Shown here in pieces: positions 7,498-15,771 of a stretch of 64,000 nucleotides of DNA (position 1 is the stretch's first letter; every line of letters begins with the position of its first letter). The stretch comes from Planctomycetota bacterium. GTDB taxonomy: Bacteria; Planctomycetota; Phycisphaerae; Phycisphaerales; SM1A02. The position numbers and the translations under genes are program-made. The notes under the pieces are model-generated. The model was given only the letters and a program-made list of their open reading frames with translations. It did no database searches and had not been told where the DNA came from. The stretch covers positions 558,001 through 622,000 of the forward strand of contig JAIOPG010000002.1 in assembly GCA_021414025.1 (NCBI GenBank). Reading direction: 5' to 3'.

Positions 7498-8697
7498 GTG
7501 AAGCTCACCGTCGCCCCGACCAACGCAGCCCAGCCCGCGGACTTGAAGCAAGTCCTGCCTGGGGATGGTGTGCGCGGCGATGGCCTCTATGTGCATGTCC
7601 CGTTCTGTCGGCACAAGTGTCACTACTGCGACTTCTATTCCTTCGTCGACTCCGAGGATCGGCAGGAGCCCTTCGTGGCCCGAATGGAAAATGAGCTCGA
7701 TGCATGGGCGCGGGTGCAGCGCGGAGAATTGCAGACGCTATTTGTCGGCGGCGGCACGCCGACCATGCTGCGGGCGGACCTGCTCGACCGGATGCTCTCG
7801 GCCATTCGCGGCAAATTGAAGTGGCAGGCCGGCGCCGAGTGGACCGTGGAGGCGAACCCGGAAACCGTGAGCGAGGAGATCGCCGCAACGCTGGCCAAGC
7901 ACAAAGTCACGCGGGTCTCGCTGGGCGCCCAGAGCTTTCAACCGGAGTTGCTCAAGGCGCTGGAGCGAACGCATGACCCCGCTTCAGTCGGCCGAGCCGT
8001 GGGGCGGCTGCGAAAAGCGGGGATCAACAGCATCAATCTCGACCTGATCTACGCCGTTCCGGGTGCTTCAATCGAAATGTGGCGACGCGACCTGGAAGCC
8101 ACGCTTGAATTGCATCCCGAGCACATGTCCTGCTACGGGCTGATGTATGAGTCCAATACGCCGCTGGGTGTGCGCCATCATCGCGGCGAAGTTGCGGCGG
8201 TCAGCGAAGAGCTTGAAGTGGAAATGCACGAACTCGCGGCGAGCATGCTCGGTGCCGCCGGCTACGAGCACTACGAGATTTCCAACTGGGCCAAGCCCGG
8301 CCATGCCTGCAAGCACAACTTGCTCTACTGGAAGAATTCAAATTGGTTTGCCGCCGGTCCCGCGGCCAGTGGTCACGCGGACGGACTGCGCTGGCGCAAT
8401 GTGCCGCGGCTTTCCGACTGGCTCGAGACCAATGACTTCGCCCCTGTGCAGGATGTGGAGAGCCTCGAGATCGACGGCCAGGTCGGTGAGGCCTTCATGA
8501 TGGGATTGCGCCTGCTGGAGGGAATGCCCAGCGAGCGCGTCGAGCAACTGCTCGCCCTCGGTGAGCGCTCCACCGTGCGCCGAATCGCGATCGCGCAACA
8601 TCTCGCTGAAGGTTTGCTCGAATGGGCAGGCGACAAGCTTCGCCTTACGGCCCGCGGCCGCATGCTGGCAAGCGAAGTCGCGATGGCTTTACTTTAG
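7498..8697 (+). CDS. hemW: HemW-type radical SAM protein (coproporphyrinogen III oxidase-like)
   Basis: The 399-residue product is a radical SAM protein of the HemW family, now regarded as a haem chaperone/insertase rather than a true HemN. The 4Fe-4S motif is C37-x3-C41-x2-C44 in 'PFCRHKCHYCDFYSF'. The downstream 'CKHNLLYWKN' is the HNxxYW block that separates HemW from HemN. The frame is open well upstream, but that region is antisense to purA. I start at the GTG at 7498, which is correctly placed behind a TANNNT box. The gene overlaps the convergent ACT-domain gene by 4 bases at its 3' end. Confidence 0.9.
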   Translation: MKLTVAPTNAAQPADLKQVLPGDGVRGDGLYVHVPFCRHKCHYCDFYSFVDSEDRQEPFVARMENELDAWARVQRGELQTLFVGGGTPTMLRADLLDRMLSAIRGKLKWQAGAEWTVEANPETVSEEIAATLAKHKVTRVSLGAQSFQPELLKALERTHDPASVGRAVGRLRKAGINSINLDLIYAVPGASIEMWRRDLEATLELHPEHMSCYGLMYESNTPLGVRHHRGEVAAVSEELEVEMHELAASMLGAAGYEHYEISNWAKPGHACKHNLLYWKNSNWFAAGPAASGHADGLRWRNVPRLSDWLETNDFAPVQDVESLEIDGQVGEAFMMGLRLLEGMPSERVEQLLALGERSTVRRIAIAQHLAEGLLEWAGDKLRLTARGRMLASEVAMALL

Positions 8698-9101
8698 GTC
8701 CGCGAAAGCACTTCCATCAAGCGGGATTCATCGGTTTCATCCACCCAGATGACTGCCGCCAGCGACCCGTCGATGGTGAGGCTCTGGATGATCTCGATGT
8801 TGATGCCGGCCCCAGCGATCGAATCCAGCCGGGCCACGAAACTGCCGCCGTTGGCCTTGTCCTTGATGAGAAAGGCGTTGGCCTCGGTGACCAGCATGTC
8901 GGCGTCGCGGGCGAAGGAGCGGAACTGGTCGGCCCGCTCGGGAATGCAATGGAATCCCACGGAAGCCCGCCCAATGACCGGCCCCCACATGCCAAGGATC
9001 TCCACGTCTGCCTCGCGCAACTGCGTGGCCAGCCGCGCCAATTCTCCGGGCCTGTGCGACAGTCGAAGAAGGAAGTCCGTGACCCGCGCCCACTGAAGCA
9101 T
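8694..9101 (-). CDS. ACT-domain protein
   Basis: A 135-residue protein with two ACT-like halves. The first half begins 'VTDFLLRLSHRPGELARLA', the typical ACT pattern ending in an amino-acid-binding loop. The second half covers 'SFVARLDSIAGAGINIEIIQ'. Stand-alone ACT proteins often sense amino acids, but no partner enzyme is fused or adjacent, so the ligand is unknown. It converges on hemW with a 4-base overlap. On the minus strand TATCAT stands 6 bases before the ATG. Confidence 0.75.
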   Translation of the reverse strand: MLQWARVTDFLLRLSHRPGELARLATQLREADVEILGMWGPVIGRASVGFHCIPERADQFRSFARDADMLVTEANAFLIKDKANGGSFVARLDSIAGAGINIEIIQSLTIDGSLAAVIWVDETDESRLMEVLSRT

Positions 9102-9166: not shown

Positions 9167-10093
9167 ATGATTGGCCTCAGACGACTGCTCGAAGGTGTGA
9201 TCGACTATGCGGGATTGTTCCCGCCCGCCGCGCTGCCGATGCAGAAGACGGTGGAGATGTTCGCGGCTCACCGCCAGACGCCGGAGCGATGGCTGCTCTC
9301 GCGCATCGCGGTGCCGGCCAAGCGGCTCTCCGAGTTCGAGAAGTGCGCGTCGCCGCTCTGGCCCAAGTCCGCCGGCGAGGGCAACTCGAACACCTGGCGG
9401 ATCTCGGCAATCGTTTCCGCGCTGGACGACCCCGAATTGGAACGCGACCTGGAGCAGATCGACGAGTTCAACGCCTTCTACAAGAAGAAAGGCGGCACGC
9501 CGGTCCACATCGAGGCGATCGAGACCAAGGCCACCAACAGTGAGATGATCACCGAGATGATGGAGCTCATACCCGACGAGTTCGAGGCCTGGGTGGAGAT
9601 TCCCTGGGAGAAGGACCCGCGCGGCATGATCGCGGCACTGGGTGGTTTCGACGCGGGGGCCAAGATCCGCACTGGCGGAATGAAGCCGAATGCACATCCA
9701 ACGCCGGAAGCTCTTGCGGTATTCATCGAAGCGGCGGCCGCGACCAAGGCGCCGATGAAGGCAACGGCGGGGCTGCACCATCCGGTGCGCCACATGGCCA
9801 AGAGCGTCGGCTGCGAGCAGTTCGGATTCTTCAACGTGGTTGTCGGCGCGTGTCTGCGCTATCACGAGATGGCCAAGGGCGAAAAGCTGGTTCAAGTGCT
9901 GGTCGAGGCTGACGAAAAGCAGTTCAAGTTTGGTCCTGAAGGACTGAAGTACAAGGACTACAAGTTGTCGCTGAAGCAGATCCAAGAGGCGCGCAAGAAG
10001 TTCTTCCGTGCCATCGGCAGTTGCTCCTTCGAGGAACCGGTCGAGGAACTGAATCGTCTCGGCTTGATTCGACAAGAAGAGACCGCTTCATGA
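9167..10093 (+). CDS. Conserved protein of unknown function, co-directional with fahA
   Basis: The 308-residue product has no domain I can name. It is soluble-looking, with no signal peptide or membrane segment. Blocks that look conserved are 'DYAGLFPPAALPM' near the N-terminus (about residues 13-25), 'AKIRTGGMKPNAHP' (about 165-178) and 'ATAGLHHPVRHMAKS' (about 204-218). The Lys, Arg, Gly-Gly and His residues in the last two blocks would suit binding of a phosphate or carboxylate in a TIM-barrel-like enzyme, but that is a guess. The stop is 37 bases from fahA, so the two are probably co-transcribed. The homogentisate pathway here lacks a maleylacetoacetate isomerase gene, so a role in that pathway is possible. 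Confidence 0.8.
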   Translation: MIGLRRLLEGVIDYAGLFPPAALPMQKTVEMFAAHRQTPERWLLSRIAVPAKRLSEFEKCASPLWPKSAGEGNSNTWRISAIVSALDDPELERDLEQIDEFNAFYKKKGGTPVHIEAIETKATNSEMITEMMELIPDEFEAWVEIPWEKDPRGMIAALGGFDAGAKIRTGGMKPNAHPTPEALAVFIEAAAATKAPMKATAGLHHPVRHMAKSVGCEQFGFFNVVVGACLRYHEMAKGEKLVQVLVEADEKQFKFGPEGLKYKDYKLSLKQIQEARKKFFRAIGSCSFEEPVEELNRLGLIRQEETAS

Positions 10094-10130
10094 ACGCACG
10101 CGGGTTGGAATCGTCCGTGGAGCAGCCTTC

Positions 10131-11420
10131 ATGAAAACTAGTTGGGTCGAATCGGCGCAAGCGAAAGATTGCGACTTCCCATTGGCGAATCTTCCATGGG
10201 GTTGCTTCACGCGTGCCGATCGAAGCAACGGCACGCGCATCGGGGTGGCGATCGGCGACCAAGTGTTCGATGTGCATGAGGCGTTGGGGCATGGATTGCT
10301 TGCCGAGTTGCCCGCCAGTGTGCAGGGCGCACTTCGCGAGTGTTCGCTGAACGCATTCATGAGCCTGGGAGTGCCGCAATGGAAGCTGGCGAGAACGCAC
10401 ATCGCCAAGCTCTTGTCGAGCGAAGAGCGATCGTTGCAAGACCATCCCAAGGCGGGGGAGATCGTGCTTCCTGCGAGCGCGGTCGCCATGAAGCTGCCTG
10501 CGCAGATTGGCGACTACACCGACTTCTACGCCAGCATTCACCACGCCACGAATGTCGGCAAGATGTTCCGCCCGGACAATCCTCTGCTGCCCAACTGGCG
10601 GCATCTGCCGGTGGGCTACCACGGCCGGGCCAGCTCTATTGTCGTCAGTGGCACGGAGTTTCGCCGGCCGATGGGGCAGACCTCCGCGACCGACGATGGC
10701 CCGCCAAGTTTCGGTCCGTCGAAGCTGCTGGACTATGAGCTTGAGGTGGGCGTCTATGTCGGGAAGGGCAACGCGATCGGCGAGCGCATCGACATTCAAC
10801 GCACGCGCGAGCACCTGTTCGGCATCTGCCTGATCAACGACTGGAGCGCCCGCGATGTCCAGAAGTGGGAGTACCAGCCGCTGGGTCCCTTCAATGCGAA
10901 GAACTTCGCGACCACCGTCTCGCCCTGGATCGTCACGCTTGACGCGGTCGAGCCCTGGTTCGAGCGCGGCCCGGTCCGCGAGAAGGATGCACCGGCGAAT
11001 CTTCCCTACCTGACCTGGAAGGACGACTTCACTTTCGACTTGAAGCTGTCGGTGTCGATCCTCACGGCATCGATGCGCGAGAAAAAGTCAGCGCCTTTCG
11101 AGATCAGCCGCGGTTCCTATCGCGACATGTACTGGACGCTGGCGCAGATGCTGGCGCACCACACTTCGACAGGTTGCCCGATGAATGCCGGTGATCTGCT
11201 GGGCAGCGGTACGGTGAGCGGCACAACTCCTGAGAGTCGCGGCTGCATGCTTGAGCGCACTTGGCGAGGGTCGGAACCGCTTGCGCTTCCCGATGGCAGC
11301 ACGCGCAAGTTCCTCGACGATGGTGATGAAGTGGTCATTCGGGGCTGGCTCGACGCAAAGAACAATCTGCCGCGCATTGGCCTGGGCGAATGCCGCGGGC
11401 AAATCCTGGCTGCGAAGTAA
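10131..11420 (+). CDS. fahA: Fumarylacetoacetase
   Basis: This enzyme hydrolyses fumarylacetoacetate to fumarate and acetoacetate, the last step of tyrosine/homogentisate degradation. Its 429 residues match the family. Blocks 'GDYTDFYASIHHATNVG' and 'LPVGYHGRASS' hold the catalytic His and metal-binding Asp. 'LLDYELEVGVYVGKGN' and 'NDWSARDVQKWEYQPLGPF' are the metal and substrate site blocks, and 'GDLLGSGTVSG' follows near the C-terminus. A GGAG lies about 9 bases before the ATG. The stop abuts the convergent DUF192 gene with no intervening base. Confidence 0.97.
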   Translation: MKTSWVESAQAKDCDFPLANLPWGCFTRADRSNGTRIGVAIGDQVFDVHEALGHGLLAELPASVQGALRECSLNAFMSLGVPQWKLARTHIAKLLSSEERSLQDHPKAGEIVLPASAVAMKLPAQIGDYTDFYASIHHATNVGKMFRPDNPLLPNWRHLPVGYHGRASSIVVSGTEFRRPMGQTSATDDGPPSFGPSKLLDYELEVGVYVGKGNAIGERIDIQRTREHLFGICLINDWSARDVQKWEYQPLGPFNAKNFATTVSPWIVTLDAVEPWFERGPVREKDAPANLPYLTWKDDFTFDLKLSVSILTASMREKKSAPFEISRGSYRDMYWTLAQMLAHHTSTGCPMNAGDLLGSGTVSGTTPESRGCMLERTWRGSEPLALPDGSTRKFLDDGDEVVIRGWLDAKNNLPRIGLGECRGQILAAK

Positions 11421-11984
11421 TCAGTGCAAATAGCTCTTGAACTTGGCGTGGTCCAGCGCGATCGTGTCGCCGGGTTTCACGCCGAGCTTCGCGTACTCGC
11501 CCGCAGGCAACTCGAGCGCGTAGATGGCGTCGTCCGCAGAGGGATAGTGTTTCAACCGCAGGTGATAAGCCTCTTCGCTCTCGGTGGCGGCCCTCGGCGG
11601 CTCGACCTTCATCGTGTAGATCGACACCACCTTGCCGTTGCGGTCGAGGTAGGCGATGTCCATGTCAATCAGGCAATCAACCATCCAGTAGCTCAGCATG
11701 TCGGAGACCCTGTGGACGAAGATCATCCCCGTGCCCGCAGGAATGCTGGCGCGGTGGCTCAGCCCGCGCATGCGGCTGGCGTCGTTGGCGGCGACCTCCA
11801 GCTCGTATTTCTTTCCGCCGATGGTGACCATCTCCAGCGGCAGCCCTGACGGAGCCTTGCGCACGCTGGTCTGCGGCTTCGCCGCTCCCGTCGCGGTCGA
11901 CTGCTTCGAGTTGTCCAGTGCCACGAACCCCGCGATGGACGCGGTCAGCAGGGCGATGATTCCGATTTTGATCGACAATTTCAT
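11421..11984 (-). CDS. DUF192 domain protein, membrane-anchored
   Basis: A 187-residue protein with an N-terminal hydrophobic segment (about residues 3-22) and a DUF192 domain covering roughly residues 45-185. Recognisable blocks are 'SRMRGLSHRASIPAGTGMIF' and 'SYWMVDCLIDMDIAYLDRNG', ending in 'LELPAGEYAKLGVKPGDTI'. DUF192 proteins are small, usually exported, and have no settled function. I start at the ATG at 11984, 4 bases after the hmgA stop, rather than at the overlapping GTG at 12008. It therefore appears to be the second gene of an hmgA operon. Confidence 0.82.
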   Translation of the reverse strand: MKLSIKIGIIALLTASIAGFVALDNSKQSTATGAAKPQTSVRKAPSGLPLEMVTIGGKKYELEVAANDASRMRGLSHRASIPAGTGMIFVHRVSDMLSYWMVDCLIDMDIAYLDRNGKVVSIYTMKVEPPRAATESEEAYHLRLKHYPSADDAIYALELPAGEYAKLGVKPGDTIALDHAKFKSYLH

Positions 11985-11988
11985 GGCG

Positions 11989-13233
11989 TTAATCCCAAGT
12001 GTTCGCACTGGTGGGTCCTTTGGGTTTGGCCTCGGGCGCCGCCTTGGTGAAATGCTCCTCTTCCCAGCTGCGCGGATAGGCCAGATCGTCCAGATCCAGC
12101 GCCGCCTTGGTCGGAAAGAGCGGCCGGAAGGTGTCGCACATCACGGCGAGCTCGTCGGTCACCGTCGCGCCCAGGCTCTTCTCGATCGTGCCGGGATGCG
12201 GCCCATGCGGAATGCCCTGCGGATGCAGCGTGACCGAAGAAACCTCGATGCCCTTGCGGGCCTTGTAGTTGCCGTGCACGTAGTAGAGCACCTCGTCGGA
12301 GTCCAGGTTGGAGTGGTTGTAGGGAACCGGAATTGCCTGCGGATGGAAATCCAGCAGCCGCGGACAGAACGAGCAGATCACGAAGTTGTGCCCCTCGAAG
12401 GTCTGGTGCGTCGGGGGCGGCATGTGGTGCTTGCCCACGATCGGGCTGAAGTCGTCGATGTTGAACGCGTAGGGGTAGTAGCAGCCGTCCCATCCGATCA
12501 CATCGCAGGGATGGTGCTTGTAGAAGTAGCGGTGCACCTGGTCGCGGCTCTTGATGCGCACCTCGAACTTGCCATCCTTGTCGAAGTGCAGCGGCTCCTG
12601 CGGCAGGCGCAGGTCGCGCTCGCAGTAGGGGGCATGCTCCAGGAACTGCGCCGTGGCCTTGGAGATGTAGCGCGGCGGCGGCAGGATGTGGCTTCCGTTT
12701 GCGGTTTCGAAGCCCACAAAGCGCGGATGGGGCTCGCCCGCCTTGGGCTTGTCGAAAGTCATCTTGTAGATCACGCCCTTGGGAATGATCAGGTAATCCT
12801 TCGGGCCGAATTTCAGCGTGCCGAAGGTGGTCTCCAGCGTGCCGCTGCCGAAATGAATGAAGAGGCACTCGTCGCCCTGGGCGTTCTTGAAGTGGTAGGG
12901 CATCGTCTCGGCGGGGACGCAGACGAACATCTCCACGTCGCAGTTGCCGAAGAGAATCACGCGACCGGTCACCGGGTCGCCCTTGGGAGGCATCGCCGCG
13001 GTCTTCACGTGGCGCATGCGCATCACGCTCTGCTCGACATAGACGGGCTTGGTTTCGTAGAGCGTCTCCCAGCCGATCACCTGCGTCGGCGGATGGATGT
13101 GGTAGAGCGTGCTGGTGGGGCCGGAGAACCCCTCGGTGCCGAAGACTTCCTCCGAGTAGAGCGCTCCGTCGGGTCTGCGGAACTGGATGTGCCGCTTGGC
13201 CGGCACTTGTCCCATCGAGGTGTAGTACGCCAT
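11989..13233 (-). CDS. hmgA: Homogentisate 1,2-dioxygenase
   Basis: This Fe(II) dioxygenase opens the ring of homogentisate to give maleylacetoacetate. The 414-residue product is close to the family length. 'YNHSNLDSDEVLYYVHGNY' supplies the metal-binding His/Glu pair, and 'LHPQGIPHGPHPG' supplies the third His. 'GWDGCYYPYAFNIDDFSP' is another conserved block. The frame extends upstream to 13476, but only the ATG at 13233 opens onto the conserved N-terminus (MAYYTSMGQV). That ATG is preceded by TACACT with a 6-base gap. It is divergent from rluA and is followed by the DUF192 gene. Confidence 0.96.
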   Translation of the reverse strand: MAYYTSMGQVPAKRHIQFRRPDGALYSEEVFGTEGFSGPTSTLYHIHPPTQVIGWETLYETKPVYVEQSVMRMRHVKTAAMPPKGDPVTGRVILFGNCDVEMFVCVPAETMPYHFKNAQGDECLFIHFGSGTLETTFGTLKFGPKDYLIIPKGVIYKMTFDKPKAGEPHPRFVGFETANGSHILPPPRYISKATAQFLEHAPYCERDLRLPQEPLHFDKDGKFEVRIKSRDQVHRYFYKHHPCDVIGWDGCYYPYAFNIDDFSPIVGKHHMPPPTHQTFEGHNFVICSFCPRLLDFHPQAIPVPYNHSNLDSDEVLYYVHGNYKARKGIEVSSVTLHPQGIPHGPHPGTIEKSLGATVTDELAVMCDTFRPLFPTKAALDLDDLAYPRSWEEEHFTKAAPEAKPKGPTSANTWD

Positions 13234-13239
13234 GGCGAG

Positions 13240-13245
13240 AGTGTA
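13240..13245 (-). promoter_or_regulatory. Leaderless-type -10 box of hmgA (TACACT)
   Basis: Minus-strand TACACT, six bases, then ATG at 13233. There is no Shine-Dalgarno sequence. It faces the rluA box across about 27 bases. Confidence 0.5.
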
Positions 13246-13272
13246 CGAAACCGCGGCGAGGTGTTCAGGCGT

Positions 13273-13278
13273 TATTCT
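13273..13278 (+). promoter_or_regulatory. Leaderless-type -10 box of the rluA-like gene (TATTCT)
   Basis: TATTCT, six bases (GCGGTG), then ATG at 13285. This spacing supports the short 221-residue product rather than the long upstream open frame. Confidence 0.5.
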
Positions 13279-13284
13279 GCGGTG

Positions 13285-13950
13285 ATGAGCAACCCCGTGA
13301 CGACCCCGAGCATGCAGCCCGTGGTGTTGCACGAGACCAAGGAATGGCTGGTGGTGAACAAGCCCGCGGGGTGGCACTCGGTGTCGCGCGAGGGCGACAC
13401 CGGCGAGAGCGTGCAATCCTGGCGAGCCCGCTGCGAGCCATCCGCGATTGAACTTCCGGAATCCGGTTTGTGCCACCGGCTAGATCAGACCACCTCGGGT
13501 TGTCTGCTGATCGCCAAGACGCTTGCGGCGCATGAGCGGCTTCGCACCGCGATGGGCGGCGCCGACGGCACCATTCAGAAAACCTATCTGGCCCTGATGA
13601 AGGCCGGCATCGAAAAGGAGGGCAACTTTCGCCTTCATTTCGAAGGCCGCTACAAGCGCTCCGCCAAGACCACGGTGTCGCGCGCGGGCTCGTGGGAAAC
13701 GGGCGGCCGCTGCAAGTGGAAGGTGCTGCGCACGATTGTGGCCCGTGGCGTGGATGTGGTCGAAGTCGAGCTCATCGGCCCCGGTCGGCGCCACCAGATC
13801 CGCGCGGGCTTCGCCTATCTGGAGCATCCACTGGAAGGGGACACGCTCTACGGCGGTCCCGGCCCCGCAAATTCGTCGCTTCATGCATGGAAGTTGATCG
13901 TGGCGGGAGTCACTGTGATCGCACCGCCACCCCCGAGGTTTGTTCCATGA
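13285..13950 (+). CDS. RluA-family pseudouridine synthase
   Basis: The 221-residue product has the catalytic block 'GLCHRLDQTTSGCLLIAK', in which the Asp of HRLD is the invariant nucleophile. 'GRRHQIRAGFAYLEHPLEGD' is the C-terminal substrate-binding block. It isomerises uridine to pseudouridine in rRNA or tRNA, but which site is modified cannot be read from sequence. The very long open frame upstream (from 11698) is antisense to hmgA and the DUF192 gene and was not used. The stop overlaps the ATG of the next gene (ATGA). Confidence 0.88.
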   Translation: MSNPVTTPSMQPVVLHETKEWLVVNKPAGWHSVSREGDTGESVQSWRARCEPSAIELPESGLCHRLDQTTSGCLLIAKTLAAHERLRTAMGGADGTIQKTYLALMKAGIEKEGNFRLHFEGRYKRSAKTTVSRAGSWETGGRCKWKVLRTIVARGVDVVEVELIGPGRRHQIRAGFAYLEHPLEGDTLYGGPGPANSSLHAWKLIVAGVTVIAPPPPRFVP

Positions 13951-14534
13951 AACTTGCCAAGCATCTTTTCCTGGCCACCGTGGTCGCTGCGGGCGCCTCC
14001 TGCCGCAACCGGGAATTCATCGAGCCGCTGGTCGGATTTATTCCCGGCACCATCCCGCTCACCTTCAATCCGAACAGCGAAAGCTACAGCTACAAGAATC
14101 ACTCCATGTCGCTGGGCGACTTCAAGTCCGTCCTGGTCCACGATGTCCAACTCGTCTCGGATGGCGGAGATCCGGACGGGGCAAGTGCATTGGCGATTCA
14201 GTTTCGCAATGAGATCATTTCCGTGGTGGGTCTTCCGGCCGCCTCCGGGCTGGGTCCGGGCGTGCTGGAGATCCGCGCCGTCATCACGGGACTCGAGGCC
14301 AACGAGCCCTTGTTCAACATCGCGCCGCAGACCCAGGTGCGCCGCCGGGGCTATGGCTTCGTGGCGGTCGAGATGTACGCCATCGATGGAGGGAACGCGG
14401 CTCCGGTCGCCGCCTACGCCGACACGCAGGACACGCAGCGATTCTCCGCTGAAAAACTCAGCACCTGGGGCAGCGCCCAGGCGGGATTGAAATCCATCGC
14501 GGATGCGTTCGGCACGCTGCTGAAGTCAAAATAA
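13947..14534 (+). CDS. Probable exported lipoprotein, DUF3313-like
   Basis: The 195-residue product starts with a Lys-containing signal peptide ending in 'VVAAGASCRN', a weak lipobox with Cys at about residue 19. The rest has 'VLEIRAVITGLEAN' and a C-terminal 'WGSAQAGLKSIADAFGTLL'. Both recall the DUF3313 lipoprotein family, but the match is from memory and tentative. It overlaps the rluA-like stop by 4 bases (ATGA), so the two are translationally coupled. It converges on hpd. Confidence 0.7.
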   Translation: MKLAKHLFLATVVAAGASCRNREFIEPLVGFIPGTIPLTFNPNSESYSYKNHSMSLGDFKSVLVHDVQLVSDGGDPDGASALAIQFRNEIISVVGLPAASGLGPGVLEIRAVITGLEANEPLFNIAPQTQVRRRGYGFVAVEMYAIDGGNAAPVAAYADTQDTQRFSAEKLSTWGSAQAGLKSIADAFGTLLKSK

Positions 14535-14568
14535 ATTTCCGGCTCAACTGCGGCAAAAGCCCCGTGCC

Positions 14569-15771
14569 TCAAAGGTTGCCGCGGCGTTCCTGCTCAATTT
14601 CCAGCGACTCGAAGAGCGCCTTGAAATTGCCCTTGCCGAAGCTCTGGCTTCCGCGGCGACAAATGATTTCAAAGAACATGGTGGGGCGATCCTGCAGCGG
14701 CTTGGTGAAGAGCTGCAGCAGGTAGCCCTCGTCGTCGGCGTCGACCAGAATGCCCAGGTCGCGGACCCGCTGATGATCCTCCTTGACGGCCTGGTGCCCG
14801 CTCTTGGTGAGCATGGCGTTGACCCGCTCCCAGACATTCTTGTAGTAGGCCTCGGGAATCGTCAGGAAGTCCACGCCGCGGCGGCGCAACTCGGCGACGC
14901 TGGCGAGCTCATCGTCGGTGCGGAAGGCCAGGTGCTGCACGCCCGGAGTCTGGTCGTGCCAATCCAGGAACTCCTGGATCTGGCTCTTGCGCTTGCCGGG
15001 GGCGGGCTCGTTGATCGGCATCTTGATCAGGTGGTTGCCGCTGGCCATCACCTTGCTCATCAGCGCCGAATAGTCGGTGGAGATGTCCGCGTCGTCGAAG
15101 TGCTTGAACATCTTGAAGCCCATGACATGCTCATACCACTCCACCCAGTGGTTCATCTTGCCCAGCTCGACGTTGCCCACGCAGTGGTCGAAGAACTTCA
15201 ATCCGCAGCTGTGCTCGCGGTTGTAGTCGTTGAGCTTGTTGTCCGTGACCTTGGCGAATTTCGGCAGGAAGAGGCCGCCGGTCTTGAGCTTGGTCAGGGC
15301 GTAGTCGCCGCTGCGGCTGACGAAGGTGTGCTGCACGCGGCCGTAGGTCTTAATGCCGGCGAACGTCACTGAGCCCGTCGAGTCCGACAGCGTGTAGGGC
15401 TGGTAGGCGCTCTCGCCGCCGTTTTTCAAGGCCTGTTCATAGGCCTTGGTCGCGTCGAAAACCGTCAGGGCGATGTCCTTGATGCCGTCGCCGAATCGGA
15501 CCAGCTCTTGGTTCCACGGATGGGCCTTGGTCAGCGGCGTCTCCAGCAGCAGCCGGATGTTGCCCTGGGTGAGCAGGTACTTGGCGCTCTCGCGGTTGTC
15601 GGTGGTGAGGTCGGAGATCTGGTCGATCTGGAAGCCAAAGGCCTGGGCGTAGAAGAACGCGCTCTGCTTGGCGTTGCCGACGATGAAGTGGACATAGTCC
15701 ACATCGATCAGGGCGAGCGGATCGGTGACGGCCGCGGCGTTGGCTGAAGTGGTTGGAGCGGTCTTGTGCAT
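14569..15771 (-). CDS. hpd: 4-hydroxyphenylpyruvate dioxygenase
   Basis: This enzyme converts 4-hydroxyphenylpyruvate to homogentisate, feeding the hmgA product. The 400-residue product has two vicinal-oxygen-chelate domains. 'VDYVHFIVGNAKQSAFFY' opens the N-terminal one. Metal ligands are the His of 'FFDHCVGNVE', the His of 'PGVQHLAFRTDD' and the Glu of 'PTMFFEIICRRG'. A TAGAAT stands 6 bases before the ATG, close to the -10 consensus. It has its own promoter facing the small membrane protein gene. Confidence 0.96.
   Translation of the reverse strand: MHKTAPTTSANAAAVTDPLALIDVDYVHFIVGNAKQSAFFYAQAFGFQIDQISDLTTDNRESAKYLLTQGNIRLLLETPLTKAHPWNQELVRFGDGIKDIALTVFDATKAYEQALKNGGESAYQPYTLSDSTGSVTFAGIKTYGRVQHTFVSRSGDYALTKLKTGGLFLPKFAKVTDNKLNDYNREHSCGLKFFDHCVGNVELGKMNHWVEWYEHVMGFKMFKHFDDADISTDYSALMSKVMASGNHLIKMPINEPAPGKRKSQIQEFLDWHDQTPGVQHLAFRTDDELASVAELRRRGVDFLTIPEAYYKNVWERVNAMLTKSGHQAVKEDHQRVRDLGILVDADDEGYLLQLFTKPLQDRPTMFFEIICRRGSQSFGKGNFKALFESLEIEQERRGNL

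Follow-up and report, generated by a model that had tools for sequence, protein, structure and literature searches.

How does a bacterium that carries hpd, hmgA and fahA pass from maleylacetoacetate to fumarylacetoacetate if it has no maiA? The question is raised by a stretch of 64,000 nucleotides (here, the window) from a Planctomycetota bacterium of the order Phycisphaerales (GenBank assembly GCA_021414025.1, contig JAIOPG010000002.1, positions 558,001 to 622,000), in which an unnamed gene, here called gene X, lies directly upstream of fahA, encoding fumarylacetoacetase (FAH). It is close to certain that X is linked to FAH and the tyrosine-breakdown pathway. We further infer, with good confidence, that X serves as maleylacetoacetate isomerase in this homogentisate pathway, with a fold unrelated to that of MaiA, the zeta-type glutathione S-transferase (GST). 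Very probably, this is a known reaction carried out by a new enzyme family.

An earlier note on this DNA, made from the letters alone, had suggested that X could be an isomerase not homologous to MaiA or could serve the pathway as some other accessory enzyme, and had proposed a genome-wide search for maiA, a test of co-occurrence with fahA, and a structure prediction. The search returned nothing, the co-occurrence is near-perfect in three partly overlapping genome sets, and the model is a confident barrel whose conserved residues cluster at one end, the arrangement expected of an active site. Together, these results support the suggestion, the activity itself being deduced. The outcome named beforehand as contrary, a maiA gene elsewhere together with no co-occurrence between this family and fahA or hmgA, did not arise.

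A homogentisate locus without maiA

The NCBIfam model TIGR01262 found no maiA at an E value of 0.001 in the whole genome of this bacterium, which is 97.48% complete; at that sensitivity and completeness, a hidden maiA elsewhere is ruled out. Among 14 control genomes, the same search was positive in 3 and exceeded the cut-off in 1; the model works, since it gives 254.6 and 256 bits (cut-off, 171.05) to the genes annotated as maiA on two proteobacterial plasmids (Sphingobium and Roseomonas). No maiA over the cut-off was present in any of 61 relatives, own genome included, or in any of 179 Acidobacteriota. Weak matches occurred in 5 of the former, of which only G059 carries both X and FAH, and in 30 of the latter, 3 of which have both. 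Likewise, no match was obtained in 21 X-bearing genomes found via the named loci described below (completeness not given; two of them, G063 and G067, recur in the Acidobacteriota set), and none over the cut-off in 11 X-bearing plasmid records, a search limited to the plasmids of these strains. In that plasmid search, both proteobacterial records were positive, and the cyanobacterial X record gave weak matches. Among plasmids in general, maiA-like genes exist in 231 records (E, 1e-15) and FAH in 119 (E, 1e-40).

X is a real conserved gene, since a scan of 84,980 species genomes revealed at least 587 relatives. It has no match in Pfam or NCBIfam up to an E value of 1, and among Protein Data Bank (PDB) sequences it has only two chance-level matches (E, about 0.7). 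Extending the Pfam search to 79 family members (X and 78 relatives; E up to 10) yielded scattered weak matches to 12 families, and 17 diverse members likewise gave only scattered weak matches in NCBIfam and Pfam. Plasmid records that annotate the gene label it "hypothetical protein."

The coordinates (Table 1) bear out the earlier placement of X, 37 bases upstream of fahA on the same (+) strand and near hmgA and hpd. The three pathway genes named at that time are indeed present. While fahA and hpd pass their NCBIfam cut-offs, the hmgA-like gene passes those of Pfam (HgmA_N, 35.3, cut-off 20.2; HgmA_C, 23.1, cut-off 21) and falls far under that of TIGR01015 (59.5 bits; cut-off, 510.75), which marks it as divergent. 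Its open reading frame spans 11989 to 13476 on the - strand, with a probable start at 13233 picked where the homologues begin aligning. A Priestia gene annotated as homogentisate 1,2-dioxygenase scores equally low on TIGR01015 (59.3 bits), and the window protein is 45 to 50% identical to X-adjacent genes of Priestia, Streptomyces, Rhodococcus and Kovacikia. This divergent HmgA subfamily, at about 59 of 510.75 bits, could escape automatic annotation. Canonical HmgA is also clustered with X, in L059 (690.8 bits) and L149 (654.6 bits); thus, X is not bound to the divergent kind.

Two further genes lie at this locus. A DUF192 protein gene (11421 to 12008, - strand) stands between fahA and hmgA and occurs close to X at 18 of the 80 named loci. 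A small ACT-domain-like gene (8694 to 9101, - strand), below the Pfam cut-off, is divergent from X, and its position is kept in close relatives.

Table 1. Genes of the homogentisate locus and selected codons of gene X, in window coordinates
Feature	Position	Strand	Basis
Gene X, unnamed family, 308 aa, candidate maleylacetoacetate isomerase, predicted (beta/alpha)8 barrel	9167..10093	+	Open reading frame, conservation, model
fahA, fumarylacetoacetase (FAH), next pathway step	10131..11420	+	TIGR01266, 553.3 bits (cut-off, 375.3); Pfam FAA_hydrolase
hmgA-like homogentisate 1,2-dioxygenase, divergent subfamily, 414 aa	11989..13233	-	Pfam HgmA_N and HgmA_C over cut-off
hpd, 4-hydroxyphenylpyruvate dioxygenase	14569..15771	-	TIGR01263, 384.7 bits (cut-off, 277)
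Lys166 codon, strand 6, aligned with E. coli DeoC Lys167	9662..9664	+	79/79; 17/17 across phyla
Arg168 codon, candidate carboxylate ligand (putative role)	9668..9670	+	79/79; 17/17
Lys198 codon, strand 7, aligned with E. coli DeoC Lys201	9758..9760	+	78/79; 17/17
His204 codon, candidate general acid/base (putative role)	9776..9778	+	79/79; 17/17
Cys286 codon, right after strand 8, candidate nucleophile of cis-trans isomerization (putative role)	10022..10024	+	79/79; 17/17

Association of X with FAH

Co-occurrence was counted in 61 relatives, 294 Planctomycetota and 179 Acidobacteriota; the own genome and other relatives recur among the Planctomycetota, which were searched for X (E of 1e-10 or less) and FAH (E of 1e-40 or less), with all matches over the cut-off. 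Among the Planctomycetota, X is present in 35 genomes and FAH in 34, with both in 34, X only in 1 (G519), FAH only in 0, and neither in 259. The Acidobacteriota have X in 35 cases and FAH in 42 (both, 34; X only, 1, namely, G249; FAH only, 8; neither, 136), and the relatives have X in 47 and FAH over the cut-off in 44 (both, 44; X only, 3; FAH only, 0; neither, 14). Two of the X-only relatives (G029 and G031) have a sub-cut-off FAH fragment adjoining X; in the third (G003, 73% complete), it is the match to X that breaks off, at residue 131. One-sided Fisher tests give P values of 9e-44 (Planctomycetota), 8e-28 (Acidobacteriota) and 3e-11 (relatives), which overstate the certainty because related genomes are not independent; the agreement between phyla weighs more. 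X therefore occurs with fahA across genomes, as is expected of a homogentisate pathway enzyme.

This association is not merely one of linkage: of the 34 Planctomycetota that have X and FAH, 8 carry them on separate contigs, on opposite strands or at a great distance from each other. In the other 26, they are neighbors on one strand (gap below 400 bases in 25; 523 bases in one). In L145 (genome G051), the FAH match is split into two pieces and frames, and X, elsewhere in the genome, reads through; the cause may be either an error in sequencing or a disrupted gene.

Named loci, i.e., the best-scoring 80 of the at least 587 X relatives, show the same partnership. In 53 of them, FAH follows X immediately on the same strand (gap below 400 bases), and in 62 it lies somewhere within the locus stretch. 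By record title, these loci belong mostly to Planctomycetota, with Chloroflexota, Acidobacteria/Blastocatellia and Gemmatimonadota in addition (titles of metagenome bins unverified). X is also present in 24 plasmid records (Streptomyces, 11; Priestia, 6; Rhodococcus and Pseudonocardia, 2 each; Kovacikia, Nonomuraea and Tsukamurella, 1 each), none of which is proteobacterial. FAH is the next gene after X in all 12 of these records that were examined, from Actinomycetota, Priestia and a cyanobacterium, as judged by annotation in 10 and by tblastn in Kovacikia and Nonomuraea. In five further Priestia records, fahA overlaps the end of X.

The order of genes on plasmids is variable around a constant X-fahA pair. 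Tsukamurella has hppD-hmgA-X-fahA, a layout that follows the reaction sequence; Streptomyces and Pseudonocardia have hmgA-X-fahA; and Priestia has hppD-X-fahA-hisC-hmgA. On the two proteobacterial plasmids, it is maiA that adjoins fahA (phhA-hpd-hmgA-fahA-maiA and hmgA-fahA-maiA). On three Streptomyces plasmids (L154, L163 and L168), the X-fahA pair stands in a stretch where neither hmgA nor hpd is annotated (gene tables are incomplete; one stretch was checked by tblastn), indicating that the constant partner of X is FAH and that X is tied to the substrate of FAH. These three plasmids may encode a related aromatic pathway whose last two steps are the same. L154 and L163 carry a protein with a maleylpyruvate isomerase N-terminal domain, and L154 also carries a ring-hydroxylating dioxygenase.

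A predicted barrel with conserved residues at a putative active site

The model of X built from the 79 aligned sequences (pLDDT, 94.7; pTM, 0.92) has eight main strands alternating with helices, that is, a triosephosphate isomerase (TIM) barrel. In barrel enzymes, the active site is at the C-terminal ends of the strands, and it is there that 23 of the 32 near-invariant positions of X are found (23 of 80 such positions versus 9 of 228 others; P, 1e-8, for a strand-end window of -3 to +6 residues chosen by the analyst). Invariant in all 79 sequences are D13, E119, E144, K166, R168, T200, H204, R276 and C286, with K198 present in 78. All ten are also invariant in 17 members from seven phyla, assigned by record title or taxonomy, that are 24 to 40% identical to X. 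Of the two blocks that the earlier note had singled out as conserved, KIRTGG (residues 166 to 171) has K166, R168, G170 and G171 invariant in the 79 sequences. LHHPVR (203 to 208) has conserved histidines (H204, 79/79; H205, 74/79), while its P, V and R fall outside the positions conserved at 90%.

These residues bear on the possibility that X has no catalytic part in the pathway and acts on FAH as a chaperone or partner or by regulating it. The tight link specifically to FAH would suit such a role; however, TIM-barrel proteins whose catalytic end carries invariant charged residues and an invariant cysteine are typically enzymes, and eight FAH-bearing genomes, described below, manage without X. 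We consider a noncatalytic X very improbable.

A second-look structural aligner, with which X aligned to barrel enzymes over residues 1 to 302, placed deoxyribose-phosphate aldolase (DERA; DeoC) on top (Z, 15.5; rmsd, 3.5; 221 residues aligned; 13% identity), with pyruvate kinase behind it (Z, 13.1). The likeness to DERA consists of this best match and of the aligned lysines on strands 6 and 7: the X model is a TIM barrel with the lysine pair on these strands that is expected of a DERA, and both lysines are invariant in the 17 diverse members. In the hhalign register, from an alignment that is itself not significant, Lys166 of X pairs with Lys167 of DeoC and Lys198 of X with Lys201, and both DeoC lysines are invariant in the DeoC alignment. 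In E. coli DeoC, Lys167 is the Schiff-base lysine, and Lys167 and Lys201 are the two active-site lysines. X differs from DERA in its low (13%) identity, in nonsignificant profile comparisons, in its gene neighbors, and in the strand-8 motif, which by eye reads GSCS in X where DeoC has GASS. No match to Pfam DeoC (PF01791) was found in any of the 79 members (E up to 10), and the own genome has two PF01791 matches over the cut-off elsewhere than X. Membership in the DERA family is thus ruled out by PF01791 and the profile comparison, leaving DERA as a structural relative only.

X shares with MaiA the step proposed for it and the same kind of operon place, beside hmgA and fahA. It differs in being unmatched by TIGR01262 or any GST family, in its length (308 residues versus a model of 211 positions), and in its predicted barrel, which would extend over the whole chain in place of the thioredoxin-like N-terminal and helical C-terminal domains of the GST fold. 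Thus, a diverged GST is rejected by both the family scan and the barrel model. There was no GST among the 50 listed structural-aligner entries for X, which by itself proves nothing. Two other isomerases offer a comparison. The mycothiol-dependent maleylpyruvate isomerase (MDMPI) of the gentisate pathway, a DinB-like protein, is a glutathione-independent cis-trans isomerase in Actinobacteria, of a family and fold other than those of X; with the MDMPI Pfam models, 1 of the 79 members gave a match, to MDMPI_C at an E value of 0.11. The cysteine-dependent maleate isomerase performs cis-trans isomerization via an enzyme cysteine, as proposed here for X, and belongs to a different fold and family.

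Proposed reaction and the points against it

Gene order and phyletic pattern place X between the HmgA and FahA steps. The window HmgA-like protein would produce cis maleylacetoacetate, which X would take over and pass on to FahA as trans fumarylacetoacetate. In the mechanism that we envisage, Lys166, aided by Lys198, would form an iminium on the ketone conjugated to the double bond; alternatively, Arg168 and His204 might polarize that ketone. Cys286 could then add to the activated C2=C3, the resulting single bond would rotate, and departure of the thiolate would yield the trans isomer. In MaiA, glutathione is the transient nucleophile of the isomerization; the cysteine of X itself may stand in for it, and X as a maleylacetoacetate isomerase is probably glutathione independent.

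X might instead be an isomerase that depends on bacillithiol, mycothiol or some other small thiol, as MaiA does on glutathione, with Cys286 being structural or redox related. X is carried by Priestia, which makes bacillithiol, and by Rhodococcus, which makes mycothiol, and small thiols take part in the known routes for steps of this kind. However, X-bearing phyla use differing thiols, and the cysteine after the barrel strand, invariant in the 79 sequences and in the 17 diverse members, offers an internal nucleophile. This alternative is improbable.

Several observations weigh against X being the isomerase or against the details of its mechanism. (i) Eight of the 42 FAH-bearing Acidobacteriota (L136 to L143) have neither X nor a maiA match. 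An hmgA-like match adjoins FAH in L136, L137 and L138, and it is canonical in L136 (690.3 bits) and L138 (701.7 bits); a homogentisate pathway is therefore possible without X. The five others (L139 to L143) have hpd beside FAH, with no hmgA recognized nearby by tblastn. (ii) G249 and G519 carry X and no FAH over the cut-off. In G249, X is followed by 1.9 kb of contig without anything FAH-like, which rules out a contig edge as the explanation. (iii) The aldolase-like lysine of X could mean a C-C cleaving enzyme. (iv) Foldseek alone did not pick DERA: its top hit was L-galactose dehydrogenase (TM-score, 0.39), which together with two dihydropyrimidinase-like chains made up the hits below 0.001, all with low TM-scores. 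(v) The hhalign comparison of X with seven DeoC sequences was not significant (probability, 0.8%, E of 0.068; in a second comparison, probability, 0.2%, E of 0.28).

The X gene of G249 (L150, 144 to 1112) is divergent and lies on a contig of 3,039 bases; its DYAGLFPP block reads DYAGHFAP.

The eight FAH-only Acidobacteriota imply that there is a different isomerase or that the step is dispensable, and it is mainly these genomes that hold our confidence in the exact reaction at good rather than high. No third isomerase type was evident around their FAH genes when the neighboring genes were read and five of them typed by Pfam; the five are a phenylalanine hydroxylase type, two FAA_hydrolase-like proteins (around the cut-off), a DDAH-like protein and an AraC regulator.

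The same genomes, two of which have canonical hmgA alongside FAH, are in line with X being another enzyme of this segment, aldolase- or hydrolase-like, that clears a side product such as succinylacetoacetate or stalled maleylacetoacetate. The cis-trans step would then be spontaneous, thiol catalyzed or bypassed by an FAH accepting the cis isomer. Class I aldolases being the top second-look structural match agrees with this as well. Yet X is as constant as an obligatory step, lacking in none of the 34 FAH-bearing Planctomycetota, and it sits beside fahA, where the examined proteobacterial operons carry maiA. We therefore regard a side-product enzyme as unlikely and retain the isomerase as the probable function.

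A fuller proposal is advanced more tentatively, as one that we find plausible and yet short of likely: that X represents a new, cofactor-free isomerase family with a DERA-like barrel, acting through a Lys166 iminium and Michael addition of Cys286, which is common across seven phyla (Planctomycetota, Acidobacteriota, Actinomycetota, Bacillota, Cyanobacteriota, Chloroflexota and Gemmatimonadota) as a nonorthologous replacement of MaiA. Among the papers listed in searches of an open-access library, none named a non-GST maleylacetoacetate isomerase; subscription journals were mostly uncovered, so a prior description is possible. In an article on filling pathway gaps (PMC9007349), the terms maleylacetoacetate, homogentisate and fumarylacetoacet- have no occurrences.

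In genomes with hpd, hmgA and fahA and no maiA, the tyrosine pathway looks broken or gapped. If X is the isomerase, it would supply the absent step in several phyla and assign a role to a family without a name in the libraries searched. Evolution would then have arrived at the same cis-trans isomerization on two occasions, one relying on a borrowed thiol and the other, perhaps, on a cysteine of the enzyme itself.

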